Part shown: positions 38,377-45,571 of the stretch, piece after piece | Position numbering within the stretch: position 1 is the first letter of the stretch | Layout of the letters: each line of letters opens with the position of its first letter | Assembly (NCBI RefSeq): GCF_031199965.1 | Contig: NZ_CP133605.1 | Span: 1,892,501-1,956,500 of the forward strand | From: Paenibacillus sp. D2_2 | GTDB lineage: Bacteria; Bacillota; Bacilli; Paenibacillales; Paenibacillaceae | Reading direction: 5' to 3' | Length of the DNA: 64,000 bases | The notes under the pieces: generated by a model | The model's database searches: none | Seen by the model: the letters and a program-made list of their open reading frames with translations, nothing else | Told to the model about the DNA's origin: nothing | Position numbers and translations under genes: made by a program

Positions 38377-38472
38377 GTACATAAATAGGCCCTAATTGGG
38401 CTTATTAGGCTTGGGTAGTAATTCATATGAGTTTGTGAATTCATCTATAAGAGATTAGGAGAGTTGATTTTA

Positions 38473-39696
38473 ATGAAGAAATGGTTACCCCTTCTGTTGA
38501 GTGGAGCAATTGGTTTAGGAGCAGTAAGTATGCCTGTGTCGGTGAACGCGGCTGATGGCTTCAAGGATGTTAAAGCAGATCATTGGGCAAAAAGTGCGAT
38601 CGAATCTGCAGCCAGCAAAGGATATTTCAAAGGATATGCTGATGGTACATTTAAACCGAACGCTACTCTGACTCGCGCCGAATTTGCTGCAACATTAGCA
38701 CGGCTTTCCAAGGTTGATGGTGTGGAGAATCCTGACCATGTCTTTGCTGATCTATCTGGGCATTGGAGCGAAGCTGAGGTAAACCGCGCGGTATCATTAG
38801 GATTTATCGATCCTAAAGATTATCCAAATGGATTTAAACCGAATACACCGGTGACTCGATTTGAGATTGCCAAATGGATGACCTCCGGTCTGGCTGCTGT
38901 TGATGAGGATTATAAGCAAGCGCTGGAAGATACAAAGACGACAGTTATTCCAGTTAAAGAGTACTTTACACCAGGCATTCCTGAATCAAAAGCTCCTTAT
39001 GTAGCGGTGGCTATGGGCACGAAGCTGCTTGGGGGTTATCCGGATGGGACATTTGGGCTTAACAGCAATGCAACCCGTGCAGAAGCTTCTACGATTCTAT
39101 TAAGATATGAATCTGTTAGCGGCAAGAAAGCAGATGAATTCCTGGGGTTAACGGAGCTACGCCAAGTTGGAACAGAGCGTACGAATATGGAAACGATCAG
39201 TCCGTTTACTACTAAACCGTCGTCTTTTAATAATGTAGTAGAAAAGAGCTATACGTTTCGTAATAATGCTGGAAGCTTGAAACTGCATAATTATATTGTA
39301 GTGGATTCTGAGAATTTCAAAAATATTGAGAGTATTTATGCTCCGTTATTTATTGATGATAAGAGTTATAATAGTCGTCTTGATGAGAAAGGAATATACA
39401 GAGCGTATATTCAAATAACAATTTACCCTAAATCTAAGGAATTTGATCTTGATCATTATATGGGTGGTGTACGTGCTGGAGTTGTACACGGAAGTAGAAT
39501 AAATAATGGAAATATAGCGGGGAAGTACGGCTACCTTACTTTACCTAATACGGACACAAAACAGTTCTTTATAGATCAAAAAGATCAGGATGGGGGAATC
39601 ACAGTTTGGGTTCAAAGATATTTGGATTCCAATAATATTGGAGACCAACTAGTAACGGATGATAATTCATTTCTTAGTATCAAGACTAAAAATTAA
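38473..39696 (+). CDS. S-layer homology (SLH) domain protein
   Basis: The product has 407 residues. A Sec signal peptide (MKKWLPLLLSGAIGLGAVSM, ending near AVSMPVSVNA-A) is followed by three SLH repeats: FKDVKADHWAKSAIESAASK, then FADLSGHWSEAEVNRAVSLG, then a variant third copy with YVAVAMGTKLLGGYPDGTF. Each ends with a TRAE or TRFE motif. SLH triplets anchor proteins to pyruvylated secondary cell-wall polysaccharide. The C-terminal 190 residues are beta-rich with no recognised domain. ATG 38473 follows TTAGGAGAGTTGATTTTA. The next gene encodes another secreted protein 15 bases downstream, so the two probably form one surface-protein operon. Confidence 0.88.
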   Translation: MKKWLPLLLSGAIGLGAVSMPVSVNAADGFKDVKADHWAKSAIESAASKGYFKGYADGTFKPNATLTRAEFAATLARLSKVDGVENPDHVFADLSGHWSEAEVNRAVSLGFIDPKDYPNGFKPNTPVTRFEIAKWMTSGLAAVDEDYKQALEDTKTTVIPVKEYFTPGIPESKAPYVAVAMGTKLLGGYPDGTFGLNSNATRAEASTILLRYESVSGKKADEFLGLTELRQVGTERTNMETISPFTTKPSSFNNVVEKSYTFRNNAGSLKLHNYIVVDSENFKNIESIYAPLFIDDKSYNSRLDEKGIYRAYIQITIYPKSKEFDLDHYMGGVRAGVVHGSRINNGNIAGKYGYLTLPNTDTKQFFIDQKDQDGGITVWVQRYLDSNNIGDQLVTDDNSFLSIKTKN

Positions 39697-39710: not shown

Positions 39711-42201
39711 ATGATAAAAAAGTGGATTTGTAGCTTTGTTACACTCATACTCCTATTAAATGAAATCCCGATTTTTTCCAATGCTGCTTTTAATGAAGGT
39801 TATCCTACCTCTGGATATAAAATAAGTGCTCCTTCATATATGCAAACCTTGGAAGTGAATGTATCAGGTAGGACTGATGCTACTCCTAAAGTGGTTTGGA
39901 CTCAAACAGATAAACAGATCTGGACTGCAACTTTCGCTGATGGCGTTGTAGAAACACCTAATGTCGGTAAGGGATGGGACGCATTACCAAAATCGAAAGA
40001 AACTGCAGAAAAAATAGATATGACCGTATATGTACCTGATTCAATGCGAGACACTGCAGATAACAAATATAAGAGAGAATATATCCGAAATCTTGGTATA
40101 GCAGATATGAATTGGATACGAGCCGACTCGTACTCGAAAGTTGATGCAAAGCCTGACTTCAAAGTTGGAGAAATTACCGCAAATATTAAGGTTATAACAG
40201 GAAACTTACAAGAATATAACAGTAAACCACAATATTCGACTCAACCAAATGGAGACCCTAAGTTTAATGCCCATTATTGGATTCCCATGGATGTAACATT
40301 TCAGGGAACTATCGTGGAAAAGAAGCAAATTCGTGTACTAGAATCTGCAGCCTTAAATATTAATGATACGAAGGATATGATCGCTCAGGTAAGAACCTTA
40401 GAATATAGTATGTCCGATTGGAATGATAAATGGACAACCGTGACCACGGCAACTGAGTGGCAGTCTAGTGATCCAAGTGTGGCAACCATTGATGCTAACG
40501 GTAAAGTTACTGCAAAAAAGAGGGAAAGACAACGATTAGCGCGGCATGGAAAAAATTCCCTTATGAGCTTAAGACAACAGCTCTTATTACAGTAGGTGAA
40601 AACACGGAAAACGGTTGTTTATTAGACCCGACTGCTCCTGAGTGCGGTGGTGGTGGTGGTGATGGTGGTGACGGAGGAAGTGTTGATTGCTCGTCACCTG
40701 ATCTAGGACAAACTATGTCTGGGCAAGATTTCACACCTAATGTCAGTGCGGTAATTAAAGCAGATAGTCGCGGAAATGAGCGGTTTAATGTTCTTGATGG
40801 AATACCGACAACAGAGAGTTTATACGGAAATGTGTGGTCGAAAGATTACCTAAGTAAATATCAGTATCAGGAAATGAAAGGTAAATGTACGTTTAATGTT
40901 AATGTTACCGTAATGCCGCCACCAGTTCCAAATGACCCTGCCCCAGCCCCTGGTCCAGATCCTGGAGAGAGTGGGGAAGAATCAGGGACTACGGTTCAGG
41001 TCATCATAGAGAAAGAATATTCTTATTGGACGATTCTGAACGTTGATGTTTATCAAATTAAGGAAGCAGCACTGTGGAACTATGCCTTTGATGGTGGAGG
41101 CATTCGGATTCAGCCGAGCGGGTACAACGCTCCGTATTATTCAACATCCCAGACTGCCGGTTATGAAGCATCTTCGGTTCCTGAGGACATTACAGTCAAT
41201 TTCGATGCAGATCCACAGGCTGCTGCAGAATCGGCCGTATATGTTAATGTCAGCAATGATACATTCACTTTTAATAATCAGACTTTGATGAATGGATCAA
41301 CCACAAGCAATCATGGATCGACACCGAGAGCGATTCCAATCGCTCCTATGACAGGGACAATGTCCTTTATAGTCCTAATAACATGATTCCAATGAGTAAA
41401 ACGAATAAACCTAACGAACCAAGTTCAGGAACCATTTTTTATGGACAAGTCAACGGATCGGGTACGATGGACTTTACAATCGATGGTATTAATCCGGTTA
41501 CCGTACATACACCAGTCGTTATTTATCCGGGAGTATCCGACGATAAGGCTCATAACCAGAAGACGAATCCGGCATTAAGCCGTTCGGCGATTATTCTGGA
41601 GCGTCCCTTTACCGTACAGATGCCGAATAGCGGACAGCATACCAATTATGTAGGGTATGGAAATCGTAATTATTTAAAATACATAGGAAGTAAGCAAATT
41701 CGCTTTCCATTTGATGTGTACAATGAGGCGAAGACGATCTTTTATCCGAAGAACACTTGGATTGAGGTGGAGAAGTCACAGGAATCCTTTACCTTTTATT
41801 TACCGGTATGGGTAGATGAAGGCTTCTACGATGTAGAGTTCAGAACGATTGCTCATAACGCGCCTGTCGGTGCGACTCATGAGACGAATGCAAACTTGAA
41901 TCTAACGCATCATATCGCCTATGGCACTGTTCCCGTAGATGTTATCGGCCGTGTGTACGATTTTCATGTAACAGATATTGCTGACTACAACTGGGAGAGC
42001 GTATTTCGTAAGGAGATCGGAAGTGCGGAGCCCACAAGCGCATCTTACTGGGTCGGACTGGTGGAATCGATGGGGCGCCGCGGGGCAATACAGAGAGATA
42101 CACCCTCCCGATTCGCTCTGGAAGTCATCCTCAATATAAAAACGCGGTACTCAAACCTGGCTATCATTTTAAGTTTGATTTAAAGACAAAGGGCAATATG
42201 T
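39711..42201 (+). CDS. Large secreted protein, exon 1 (interrupted by a group II intron; three frameshifts)
   Basis: This is the 5' part of a gene that resumes at 44794. The start MIKKWICSFVTLILLLNEIP is a signal peptide. Around residues 260-290 there is a bacterial Ig-like segment (WQSSDPSVATIDANGKVTAK), then a Gly/Asp-rich and a Pro-rich linker (PPPVPNDPAPAPGPDPGES) and a long beta-rich region. The frame breaks at about 40516 (one A missing, giving VTAKKEGKTTISAAW), 41320 (one G, HGSDTESDSNRSYDRDN) and 42060 (one G, WVGLGGIDGAPRGNTERYTL). With these, the fourth break in exon 2 and the intron removed, the gene encodes 1090 residues. The function is unknown; it probably acts at the cell surface with the SLH protein. 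Confidence 0.75.
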
Positions 42202-44793
42202 GTGCGACTTGTTTTGCTATAACTGAGTAAAATCAGGAAATGCAAGGACTTTCAAAAGTCTAACTTTCTATCTGAGGACAGGAATGAGGAATCCAAGTTT
42301 TCCGAAACTGTTCCGTTGAGACTCCTACATGCCTCCTGTTCAGCAGAAATAAGAGGTATGAAGCTAGGTGAAGTCGGCAGAAAGAAGGCTACAGCCACCT
42401 ATTAAGGAAGGTATGCCAACCGATATGCCGGACGGCTGAAAAAATTGTCTATGGTGAGAATGTTCATATGGGAACCGACGAAACTCCGAATTTACGAATC
42501 TAAATGCCTACCTCATGGAAACATGTTGACCAACGAATGTTGGGGCAAGCGGCGTAAAGTACGATTACATGTTAGGAAATACGCTATACCGAACAATGGC
42601 GGTATCACACTTGCAGGTTCAAAGGAGTCACCTAAGGACAATATGCATAGCTAAGATAGAAGGAACAAGGAAACCAAGGGACGTCGCAACAATGGACTGC
42701 TATCCAAGACGGTTGCTATAAGGTTAATTCCGAAATGCATTTATCCTTGCGAGAGTAAGGGCACTACCAATGAAGCTTCTGTAACGGGAGTGGAGGAACA
42801 GCCCTGAGTCTTGCTATTATGATAAACAACTTCCAAAAGTGAACTGTATCGGTCGGGTATGAAAGTGGGGACAATCTCTACAAGGAGGTTGCCACAATAC
42901 AGGCTCTACGTTATTGGGATTACTACAACTTAACGGATACCTTTACTGATTTACATGAACGTGCTAAGCAAAAAGGGGCATTTAACCGTCTGTATGAATT
43001 AATCACATCAAAGGAAACTATTCTTCTTGCCTACCGCACAATTAAGTCAAATAAGGGATCGAAGACAGCAGGAACAGACGGCAAGACAATTGAGAACCTT
43101 AAAGTAATAACTGATAGCGACCTTGTAAATCTCATTAAAACAAAACTGGAAAATTATCATCCTAAGAAAGTTAGACGAGTCTATATTCCTAAAGCCAATG
43201 GAAAAATGAGACCATTGGGGATTCCATGCATCCTAGACCGATTAATACAACAATGCTTTAAGCAAGTGCTTGAACCAATTGCCGAGGCACATTTTTATAA
43301 ACATAGTTATGGGTTCAGACCGCTACGATCTACCCACAACGCATTGGCCAGAGTGCAATTTTTGATTAATAATGGAGGACTCCATTACATCGTAGACATT
43401 GATATAAAAGGATTCTTCGACAACATTAATCACTCAACCTTATTAAAGCAGCTATGGAATCTAGGGATACATGACCGTAAAGTCTTGCGCATCATCAGTC
43501 GAATGCTGAAAGCTGAGGTTGAAGGCGAAGGCATTCCTGAAAAGGGAACCCCCCAAGGTGGGATACTATCCCCTTTGCTTTCCAATATTGCATTGCACGA
43601 CCTGGATGTATGGGTAGCTGGGCAATGGGAGAACTTCCAACCCAATCATGCATATACAAAGAGGAATAAATACAACGCTTTGAAGAAATCAAAGCTTAAA
43701 GAAGGATTCATCGTTAGATACGCTGATGACTTCAAGATCCTCTGTCGTGACTGGAAAACAGCCCAAAAGTGGTTTCATGCCGTAAGACTATACTTGAAAG
43801 ATCGTCTAAACTTGGATATCTCCCCAGATAAATCGAAAATCTTAAATCTTCGAAAGAAGAAATCCGAGTTTCTTGGATTTACTATTAAGGCTACGATAAA
43901 GGGGAAAAAGGCAGTTGCGCATACCGGTGTGATTGATAAGAAAAAACAACAAATAAAACTGCAATACAAAAAACTCATTCAAGATATTAAAAAATCACCT
44001 TCGGCTGGTAATGCACACCGCTTCAACAGTTTTGTTCTTGGGATTCACAATTACTTTAAGAAAGCAACGCATGTATTTATCGAGTTCTCACGACTTGCCT
44101 ATGACCTGAAAAAGTTCACCTATAATCGTTTAAAGCAGATTGGTAAATACGAGCATCCGAATAATCCACCTCCTACATATAGGAAATTCTATTCAACAAG
44201 TTATCGAACATTTAATGTTGATGGGATATACCTGTATCCAATAGTGGATGTAAGAACCTCCAAAAACCTGAACTTCAGTCAAGAGATGACACCATTCACT
44301 GTGGAGGGACGGAGCCTCATTATCAAAAAGCTTAGTGGGCATGTACAAACAGAAATCATCAAAATGATGAAATCTGACAATCCACAACGAAGCGCTGAAT
44401 TTCTGGATAATCGGATTAGTCGGTACAGTATGGTGATGGGGAAATGTGAAATTACAGGCATGTTCCTATTTGCGAATGATGTACACTGTCATCATTATGT
44501 ACCAACGTATCTCGGTGGAGATGACAAATATAATAACTTACGCATCCTTCATCGAGATGTCCATACACTAATTCATGCTACGAATGAACAGACGATTATT
44601 GGACTCAAGCGTATGCTTGGTTTAACAGAACCTATGTTGCAAAAAGTTAACCAATACCGCAAAATGAGTAACTTGGAAATAGTTGTTTAAAACATAATAG
44701 CAAGATGGAGCGCCGTGTGCGGTGAAAGTCGCATGCACGGTGCGGAGGTGGGGAAAAGGTGGCGACTCCAGTCAAAACCTTACCTATACCTAT
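42202..44793 (+). mobile_element. Group II intron with reverse transcriptase/maturase
   Basis: The 5' end reads GTGCGACTTG, matching the GUGYG intron start. The 3' end is CTATACCTAT, ending in AY. Domain V is at about 44708-44744 (GAGCGCCGTGTGCGGTGAAA, then GTCGCATGCACGGTGC), with its GAAA-type loop and AGC near the base; domain VI follows with a candidate branch A in CCTTACC. The 2592-base intron encodes a full maturase. Removing exactly 42202-44793 joins ATGT to TCGGT and continues one frame as GNMFGTQDQIRITPSFYF, which fixes the boundaries. The intron sits in a coding gene, so splicing is needed to make the host protein. Confidence 0.93.
42897..44690 (+). CDS. ltrA: Group II intron-encoded protein: reverse transcriptase, maturase, HNH endonuclease
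   Basis: It would have 597 residues from codon 42897. The N-terminal RT0 region reads LRYWDYYNLTDTF and SNKGSKTAGTDGKTI. RT motifs include YGFRPLRSTHNAL, GTPQGGILSPLLSNI and the catalytic FIVRYADDFKIL. A maturase (domain X) segment follows. The C-terminal HNH nuclease has CEITG, then CHHYVPTYLGGDDKYNNLRI and HRDVHTLIH. It helps the intron splice and inserts it into DNA. There is no ATG, GTG or TTG in frame between the stop at 42840 and ATG 43206, yet homology starts upstream. AAGGAGG ends eight bases before ATA 42897, which suggests an AUA start or a changed ATG. Starting at 43206 would remove essential RT motifs. Confidence 0.88.
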   Translation: MQALRYWDYYNLTDTFTDLHERAKQKGAFNRLYELITSKETILLAYRTIKSNKGSKTAGTDGKTIENLKVITDSDLVNLIKTKLENYHPKKVRRVYIPKANGKMRPLGIPCILDRLIQQCFKQVLEPIAEAHFYKHSYGFRPLRSTHNALARVQFLINNGGLHYIVDIDIKGFFDNINHSTLLKQLWNLGIHDRKVLRIISRMLKAEVEGEGIPEKGTPQGGILSPLLSNIALHDLDVWVAGQWENFQPNHAYTKRNKYNALKKSKLKEGFIVRYADDFKILCRDWKTAQKWFHAVRLYLKDRLNLDISPDKSKILNLRKKKSEFLGFTIKATIKGKKAVAHTGVIDKKKQQIKLQYKKLIQDIKKSPSAGNAHRFNSFVLGIHNYFKKATHVFIEFSRLAYDLKKFTYNRLKQIGKYEHPNNPPPTYRKFYSTSYRTFNVDGIYLYPIVDVRTSKNLNFSQEMTPFTVEGRSLIIKKLSGHVQTEIIKMMKSDNPQRSAEFLDNRISRYSMVMGKCEITGMFLFANDVHCHHYVPTYLGGDDKYNNLRILHRDVHTLIHATNEQTIIGLKRMLGLTEPMLQKVNQYRKMSNLEIVV

Positions 44794-45571
44794 TCGGTAC
44801 ACAGGATCAGATTCGCATCACGCCAAGCTTTTATTTTATTAGTGCCCAGGATGGAAATCGGACTTTGGTGGACTTGTATTATCATACAGGGAGCAGCAGT
44901 TACGTGAAGATCGGTTCGCCGCTGGATGAGGTAGAGCGCTATGTCGTCTTGAATGAGCGGCTGCGAAATGTACCAGACGAGGAACTTACAGATACGGCGC
45001 TATATAAATATGATCATGAATATACGTTTGGACAGGTTGCTAACATAGGGCGTGCTCAATACGTTCAATACTATAAAGAAAAGATGACAAAGCAGAAAAC
45101 GATGGTCGGCAGTCTCAGTCTGTTGCAGCTTCCTGCAAATGTCCGAACTTTGCTTGGACCCAAGAATGGCTTGCCTGAAGGCGTGGACGTAGCACGGGCC
45201 AATGCTTCGATTCAGCGATGGTATGGGGAGTACAGCCTGCCTGCAGAATTGTTTGCGGTTAAAGCAGGGACGAATGTGGCTGAATATGGACGTACTCATC
45301 AAGGGTTAACGGATAAATCTCCGATTTTTCTAAGAGATGGGTATATTGTTGTGAATTTTAACATTGAGACGGTGCGTGACGGGCAGACGGACAAGCCATA
45401 TTTGCAATATATCCACGCCCCACTGATGAATCAATGGCAGCAGATGGAAGGCTTCAAGCGTCAGATTACGGACCGTATGGCCGTGCCTATACACTTTTGG
45501 ATGGAGATGTAGTATTCTACCAAGCGGATCAATCTAGCCGTGATGATTTTCGATCGATGGTGACACATTGA
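44794..45571 (+). CDS. Large secreted protein, exon 2 (frameshifted near 45480)
   Basis: This continues exon 1 after intron removal (FGTQDQIRITPSFYFISAQD). It is beta-rich, with VDLYYHTGSSSYVKIGSP and a helical middle (DVARANASIQRWYGEYSLPA). A TAG appears at 45512 in the raw sequence, but one G is missing near 45480: restoring it gives TDRMGRAYTLLDGDVVFYQA and the frame continues to TGA at 45569-45571. Exon 1 plus exon 2 with the four restored bases is exactly 1091 codons. No cell-wall anchor motif is seen at the C-terminus. I do not recognise a functional domain. Confidence 0.72.

Follow-up and report, generated by a model that had tools for sequence, protein, structure and literature searches.

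Group II introns at three sites of a DUF5704 gene in Paenibacillus and its family

A group II intron that lies in the sense orientation within a protein-coding gene raises the question of how it came to be there and whether the gene can still yield its protein. The locus studied here poses this question in Paenibacillus sp. D2_2 (genome G000, a single contig of 5.75 Mb). The stretch analysed, referred to below as the window, comprises 64,000 nucleotides (C1:1892501-1956500). In two articles (PMC4424553, PMC8919778), most bacterial group II introns are described as lying outside housekeeping genes, with which the original prediction for this locus agrees. The intron in the window is real: a complete group II intron of 2592 nt occupies positions 42202-44793 on the sense strand of a DUF5704 gene. 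The prediction of a sense intron in a coding gene, with these ends, is upheld by Rfam, by homologous loci and by EBS1-IBS1 pairing. The features of the locus are as follows.

39711-42201, plus strand: 5′ exon of the DUF5704 gene, opening with an apparent signal peptide (several open reading frames, split by single-base indels)
42191-42195, plus strand: IBS2 (GGGCA), pairing with EBS2 at 42505-42509
42196-42201, plus strand: IBS1 (ATATGT), pairing with EBS1 (mean of 0.90 over 24 rows)
42202-44793, plus strand: group II intron, 2592 nt (Rfam, empty sites of homologues, 99.7% identical intron at the same site in genome G011)
42259-42442, plus strand: ribozyme part, group-II-D1D4-5 (Rfam)
42505-42509, plus strand: EBS2 (TGCCT; exon-pairing column test)
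42567-42572, plus strand: EBS1 (ACATGT; exon-pairing column test)
42897-44690, plus strand: RT/maturase of 597 amino acids with YADD, an HNH-like C-terminus and an apparent ATA start (open frame, profile matches)
44710-44743, plus strand: domain V, 34 nt (Rfam Intron_gpII; exact limits and CGC triad by eye)
44794-45568, plus strand: 3′ exon of the DUF5704 gene (end taken from the match to the G031 homologue)

The intron begins with GTGCGAC at 42202 and ends with CTAT at 44793, in agreement with the GUGYG and AY rules. In an Rfam cmscan search, the group-II-D1D4-5 family (RF02004) matches at 42259-42442 with 97.9 bits (cut-off 34.5) and domains V and VI (Intron_gpII, RF00029) match at 44708-44793 with 59 bits (cut-off 40), the last base of the latter match being exactly the proposed 3′ end. 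No second domain V was found at gathering score in the whole 64-kb window, so the locus does not have the several D5/6 motifs of the C.te.I1 type. Plasmid and phage carriers of this intron were considered and rejected: the best plasmid match among the matches listed has only 67.5% protein identity, plasmid DNA matches cover at most 1% of the query, and the best phage match is only 57.4% identical at the protein level.

The frame of the intron-encoded protein (IEP) is open from 42882 to 44690. The protein matches the NCBIfam profile TIGR04416 (group_II_RT_mat) with 336 bits (336.1; cut-off 300) and RVT_1 with 129 bits, and its best match by sequence among solved structures is LtrA, a group II intron protein. 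The RT-maturase claimed for the intron is intact, YADD included; of the fuller claim of an RT-maturase-HNH protein the RT/maturase part stands, while HNH (17.5 bits, Pfam cut-off 21.4) and GIIM (12.3 bits, cut-off 23) are detected only below threshold. The frame contains no ATG, GTG or TTG codon before 43206. The apparent ATA start at 42897 is preceded by an AGGAGG-like site and is kept in the copies checked from the clade at the same insertion site (G011, P. dendrobii, P. lemnae and Paenibacillus sp. 2.1); GTG stands at this position in two relatives at site A (see below) and in two others. The 80 related loci kept of 97 found belong to the Bacillota by their titles, at most consistent with class B (Firmicutes IIB).

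Many of the loci L063-L126 form a large Bacillota sister group, in which a GTACGAC or GCGCGAC start follows a conserved ..CTAACGG.. stretch. This stretch looks partly complementary to the 3′ flank, and the true 5′ splice site may precede the motif. Among the relatives with such starts that were tested, there is none in which the two flanks stay open in a single phase for 60 codons, so residence in a gene is not general for this intron family. Elsewhere among the relatives, Paenisporosarcina sp. TG20 has two introns back to back (L061 859-4344), the second of only 843 nt.

The interrupted gene probably encodes a secreted DUF5704 protein. The host reading frame starts at 39711 with a signal-peptide-like sequence, judged by eye, and its 5′ exon carries Big_2 in the ORF at 39711-40595 and DUF5704 in the ORF at 40715-41386; the intact homologue in genome G031 has DUF5704 alone in Pfam. 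Homology to the G031 protein begins at 40610, and at E 1e-5 nothing in the window matches residues 1 to ~300 of that protein. The N-terminal part of the protein family seems far more variable than the rest. The host reading frame itself has no SLH domain; that domain lies in a separate upstream ORF (38464-39696), which ends before the host frame starts. In gene order, the window has an rlmN-PP2C-kinase block following the DUF5704 gene (at about 45634); the two adjoin in G025 and lie ~380-470 kb apart in G011 and G031. G000 yielded no homologue besides the interrupted gene (one match to a 218-residue query), which supports the claim that production of the host protein would depend on splicing, and a single homologue is likewise found in seven of the nine intron-bearing genomes described below.

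As assembled, the window's own DUF5704 gene is not open. The single-base indels that split its exons, taken with the insertion itself, might be read as marks of a decaying pseudogene that houses a splicing-dead intron. Where they align with G031, over ~1.5 kb in exon 1 and 0.78 kb in exon 2, the host exons show three single-base gaps and one 3-base gap; all host-gene comparisons were made on the sequence as assembled, with no base restored. However, the same kind of indel is present in the neighbouring conserved genes, where 12 indels not divisible by three occur in 6367 bases aligned with G011, a rate of about one per 530 bases, and the completeness of the G000 genome is 93%, compared with 99% for most of the genus. 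For these two reasons, assembly errors fit the host-exon indels better than a decaying gene does, although the errors would not be uniform, since the intron itself has zero indels against G011 over 2592 columns. The four homopolymer repairs by which the original prediction arrived at 1091 codons are in keeping with this indel background. The ribozyme elements and the RT are intact, and at the same insertion site the exons are open in four other species. A dead intron in a decaying gene is therefore very unlikely.

Introns were found in the DUF5704 gene in nine of 394 genomes of the family, a lower bound that is set by the sensitivity of the search, and they occupy three sites within about 210 nt. 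The site of the window's intron, site B, is occupied in G000, G011, G170 (P. dendrobii), G189 (P. lemnae) and G264 (Paenibacillus sp. 2.1). Site A lies 69 codons upstream of site B and is occupied in G011, G261 (P. assamensis), G258 and G266; P. assamensis has two such loci, both cut off by a contig edge so that 22 nt of 5′ exon remain. Site C, about ten codons before site B, is represented by a single genome, G137, in which the contig ends before the 3′ end of the intron. The species names given for G170, G189, G261 and G264 are based on intron proteins that are identical or on contig coordinates that agree. The junctions at sites A and B are both in phase 1. At site B the exons are open for 836 codons on the 5′ side and 261 on the 3′ side in P. 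dendrobii, 837 and 251 in P. lemnae, and 865 and 254 in Paenibacillus sp. 2.1; the corresponding 91 and 258 codons in G011 include, in the former figure, an extension back into the other intron of that gene. G011, which belongs to the same genus as the window's genome, has two introns that bound a 207-nt exon (L047 5889-6095). Both ends of this exon are in phase 1, so that its skipping would keep the reading frame.

Queried against the same 394 family genomes, the intron protein finds matches at E 1e-200 or better in 19, the window's ribozyme DNA in 35 and a protein-less intron from G266 in 51 (at E 0.001, many of them weak); the protein query also finds 22 of 392 genomes drawn from the order, a set that overlaps the family set. 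Partial 5′ intron pieces in G336, G304 and G157 and an exon of G149 have no DUF5704 match at E 0.001. The DUF5704 copy of Paenibacillus sp. 2.1 (L102 4306-6881) is 14 nt shorter than its sisters and has no open protein of 540 residues, and several intact near-identical copies are present elsewhere in the genome. These extra copies (L050-L053 and L105) have a 5′ flank in common, ..GGGCCTAAAAGGCAATATGT or close to it, which gives the impression that a dispersed repeat became a second target.

The introns at site B are far more alike than the exons around them. Between G000 and G011 the intron is 99.7% identical over 2592 nt, whereas identity is 81.1% (over 207 nt) and 85.2% (over 600 nt) in the flanking exons and 89% along 6.3 kb from elsewhere in the chromosome. 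Between P. dendrobii and P. lemnae the intron is 96.2% identical and the exon fourfold sites are 23-35% identical. At site A, the two P. assamensis intron copies do not differ at all (100% identity), while the 3′ exons that follow them agree at 60% of fourfold sites. Because the intron of G000 and G011 is 99.7% identical between exons of 81-85%, we infer recent site-specific homing for this pair, and the same contrasts suggest that the introns spread by retrohoming, with horizontal transfer between species. Old vertical inheritance would also place introns at the same site in several species, and it suits the protein-less site-A pair of G258 and G266 described below. As an account of the same-site presence as a whole it is highly improbable, given the intron-exon contrast at site B and the P. 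assamensis copies. Recent homing also means that the near-identical window copy, taken alone, shows no sign of long-term selection for splicing.

Homing of this kind would be guided by pairing between intron and exon, which also bears on where the intron ends. The column test aligned 37 rows that start with GTGCG or GTGTG and have a found 3′ end; 24 rows with different flanks were retained, five of them from site B in different species and two from site A, the remaining rows being dropped, and G-U pairs were scored as half. The best alignment column for EBS1-IBS1 has a mean of 0.90, the next 0.52 (mean over columns 0.34, s.d. 0.07), and the 24 rows contain 13 different EBS1 sequences. For exon bases -7 to -11 the best column scores 0.78, compared with 0.49. 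The pairing in the window is 5.5 of 6, with one G-U; rows L091, L115 and L157 pair weakly, at 4-4.5 of 6. Among 14 loci of the same genus, the site is uninterrupted in 13, reading KGNM-FG in 11 and KGNM-MD in two (L011 and L012), the fourteenth (L004 of G011) being itself interrupted. The comparison with intron-free homologues, proposed at the outset as a check, accordingly yields 13 loci that read straight through at the proposed junction.

Frame restoration had been expected to fix both ends of the intron. The junction is indeed in frame, and a 5′ end at 42200 is excluded by the frame, but a 3′ end at 44787 (also ..CCTAT), 6 nt upstream, would leave the same frame, so frame alone does not settle the 3′ end. 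The ends are placed at 42202 and 44793 because the homologue junctions, the Rfam 3′ end and the EBS1 register all agree on them; both the 5′ candidate at 42200 (GTGTG) and the 3′ candidate at 44787 are contradicted by the homologues and by the exon pairing. Splicing at other ends, for which the frame-keeping 44787 and the 5′ site of C.te.I1, 8 nt upstream of GUGYG (PMC3919590), might be invoked, is hardly credible in the face of this agreement.

With the ends placed at 42202 and 44793, the locus can be read as follows. EBS1 and EBS2 would pair with the codons around KGNM^FG and direct a mobile intron into one conserved position, site B, within a DUF5704 protein gene that is conserved in the Paenibacillaceae. 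Its own RT/maturase would then help it to splice from the sense mRNA, leaving a message from which the host protein could be produced, and the gene would be a recurrent target, at sites A, B and C. In one lineage at site A the protein would have been lost, and the intron apparently persists in a splicing-only form. We consider it very probable that the window holds a mobile intron that homes to site B and splices with its own RT/maturase, in a gene that is targeted recurrently; splicing in the cell is deduced here from sequence.

The recurrence is reflected in a tree of 66 intron proteins, in which the introns of sites A, B and C occupy different positions. Eight rows carry the DUF5704 label, one of them by proxy: Paenibacillus sp. 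2.1 is represented for site B by L057, a near-identical copy elsewhere in its genome, its site-B copy having a broken protein. This label needs four changes on the tree, forced by well supported branches. One relative of the site-B introns resides in a ZnuA gene, and the site-C row is on a long branch, which makes its placement less sure. In view of the tree placements and the different EBS1 sequences, the simplest reading is that the DUF5704 gene was invaded separately at least three times.

The site-A introns of G258 and G266 differ from the others in size and content. They are 736 and 737 nt long and encode no protein, yet D1-4 and D5/6 are both present at Rfam gathering score, so each is a complete ribozyme without an IEP, and their EBS1 is, by eye, complementary to their own exon. 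The exons are open for 759 and 752 codons before the intron, respectively, and for 319 after it in each, and the DUF5704 gene is the only homologue found in either genome. No maturase of more than 41% identity was found in G258 or G266, the best RT match in each genome being 41% identical over part of the protein. A distant maturase acting in trans could apply, and maturase splicing in trans is reportedly a known mechanism, from work said to have appeared in JBC in 2005. In both G266 (L181 3278-3383) and G258 (L187 225-120, minus strand), a TPP riboswitch is present on the downstream side of this gene.

Over a 7-kb region the two genomes are colinear and 81% identical. The introns are 89.8% identical (a figure that includes one exon base), whereas in the 5′ exon 88 of 147 fourfold sites agree (60%), and a comparison of 400 codons gives identities of 91, 89 and 66% at codon positions 1, 2 and 3. 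Paired positions differ less often than unpaired ones, both in D1-D4 (25 of 327 versus 41 of 302) and in D5-D6 (3 of 60 versus 5 of 35), and the G266 intron folds better than all 20 of 20 shuffled sequences (z = -2.03). Against conservation of structure, 11 of the 163 predicted D1-D4 pairs have changed so that one or both introns no longer form a standard pair; among the pairs kept, eight changes are one-sided and two are two-sided. The case for structural conservation rests mainly on the paired and unpaired counts, with a consensus structure taken from the same alignment. An intron that is 90% conserved where fourfold sites are 60% identical, in a syntenic 7-kb region and with no close maturase, is most simply read as having descended vertically under selection for splicing. 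The pair suggests a splicing-only, vertically inherited bacterial intron.

No report of introns in a DUF5704 gene was present among the matches listed in a search of titles and abstract openings, mostly outside the subscription journals, and DUF5704 is mentioned in no paper of the searched literature, whose scope excludes most such journals. An intron in the recA gene of Geobacillus kaustophilus reportedly provides another case of a chromosomal bacterial protein gene that is interrupted, to judge by its title, and a twintron is said to occur among introns of bacterial genes in Trichodesmium.

A close comparison by description is C.te.I1, which lies in a surface-layer protein gene of Clostridium tetani; its 5′ site is shifted, it encodes no IEP, and its four D5/6 motifs lead to isoforms (PMC3919590). 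The window's intron likewise interrupts a Gram-positive gene for a probable cell-surface protein; unlike C.te.I1, it has a single D5, canonical ends and an IEP. The site-A introns of G258 and G266 resemble C.te.I1 in having neither an IEP nor a close maturase in the genome. A 2015 review regards protein-less introns as a rarity among bacteria and gives C.te.I1 as the sole example whose genome has no related protein (PMC4424553). Six protein-less introns in phage genomes are described in a 2025 paper, in which those that interrupt coding regions are taken to be active (PMC12350094); they share the lack of a protein with the G258 and G266 introns but are, by description, hosted by phage genomes. 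The near-identical introns in diverged exons of G000 and G011 recall Ll.LtrB and Ef.PcfG, which are described as 99.7% identical at the same conserved position of diverged homologous relaxase genes in two species (PMC5072309). The host of that pair is a relaxase gene of conjugative elements, whereas the host in the window is a chromosomal protein gene.

A broader interpretation can be put forward tentatively, as a possibility that we hold at somewhat short of even chances: that the DUF5704 gene is a bacterial counterpart of the intron-bearing genes of organelles. The three sites within about 210 nt would then have been invaded independently by separate lineages, one of which lost its protein and its mobility and has been kept vertically because its single-copy host needs splicing, and the skippable 207-nt exon of G011 may give rise to two protein forms. 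The usual view of group II introns in bacteria is of retroelements that avoid important genes. In contrast, one conserved chromosomal gene holds mobile, two-intron and apparently immobile protein-less forms in related species, which could allow bacteria to be used for studying how a mobile element turns into a resident intron.
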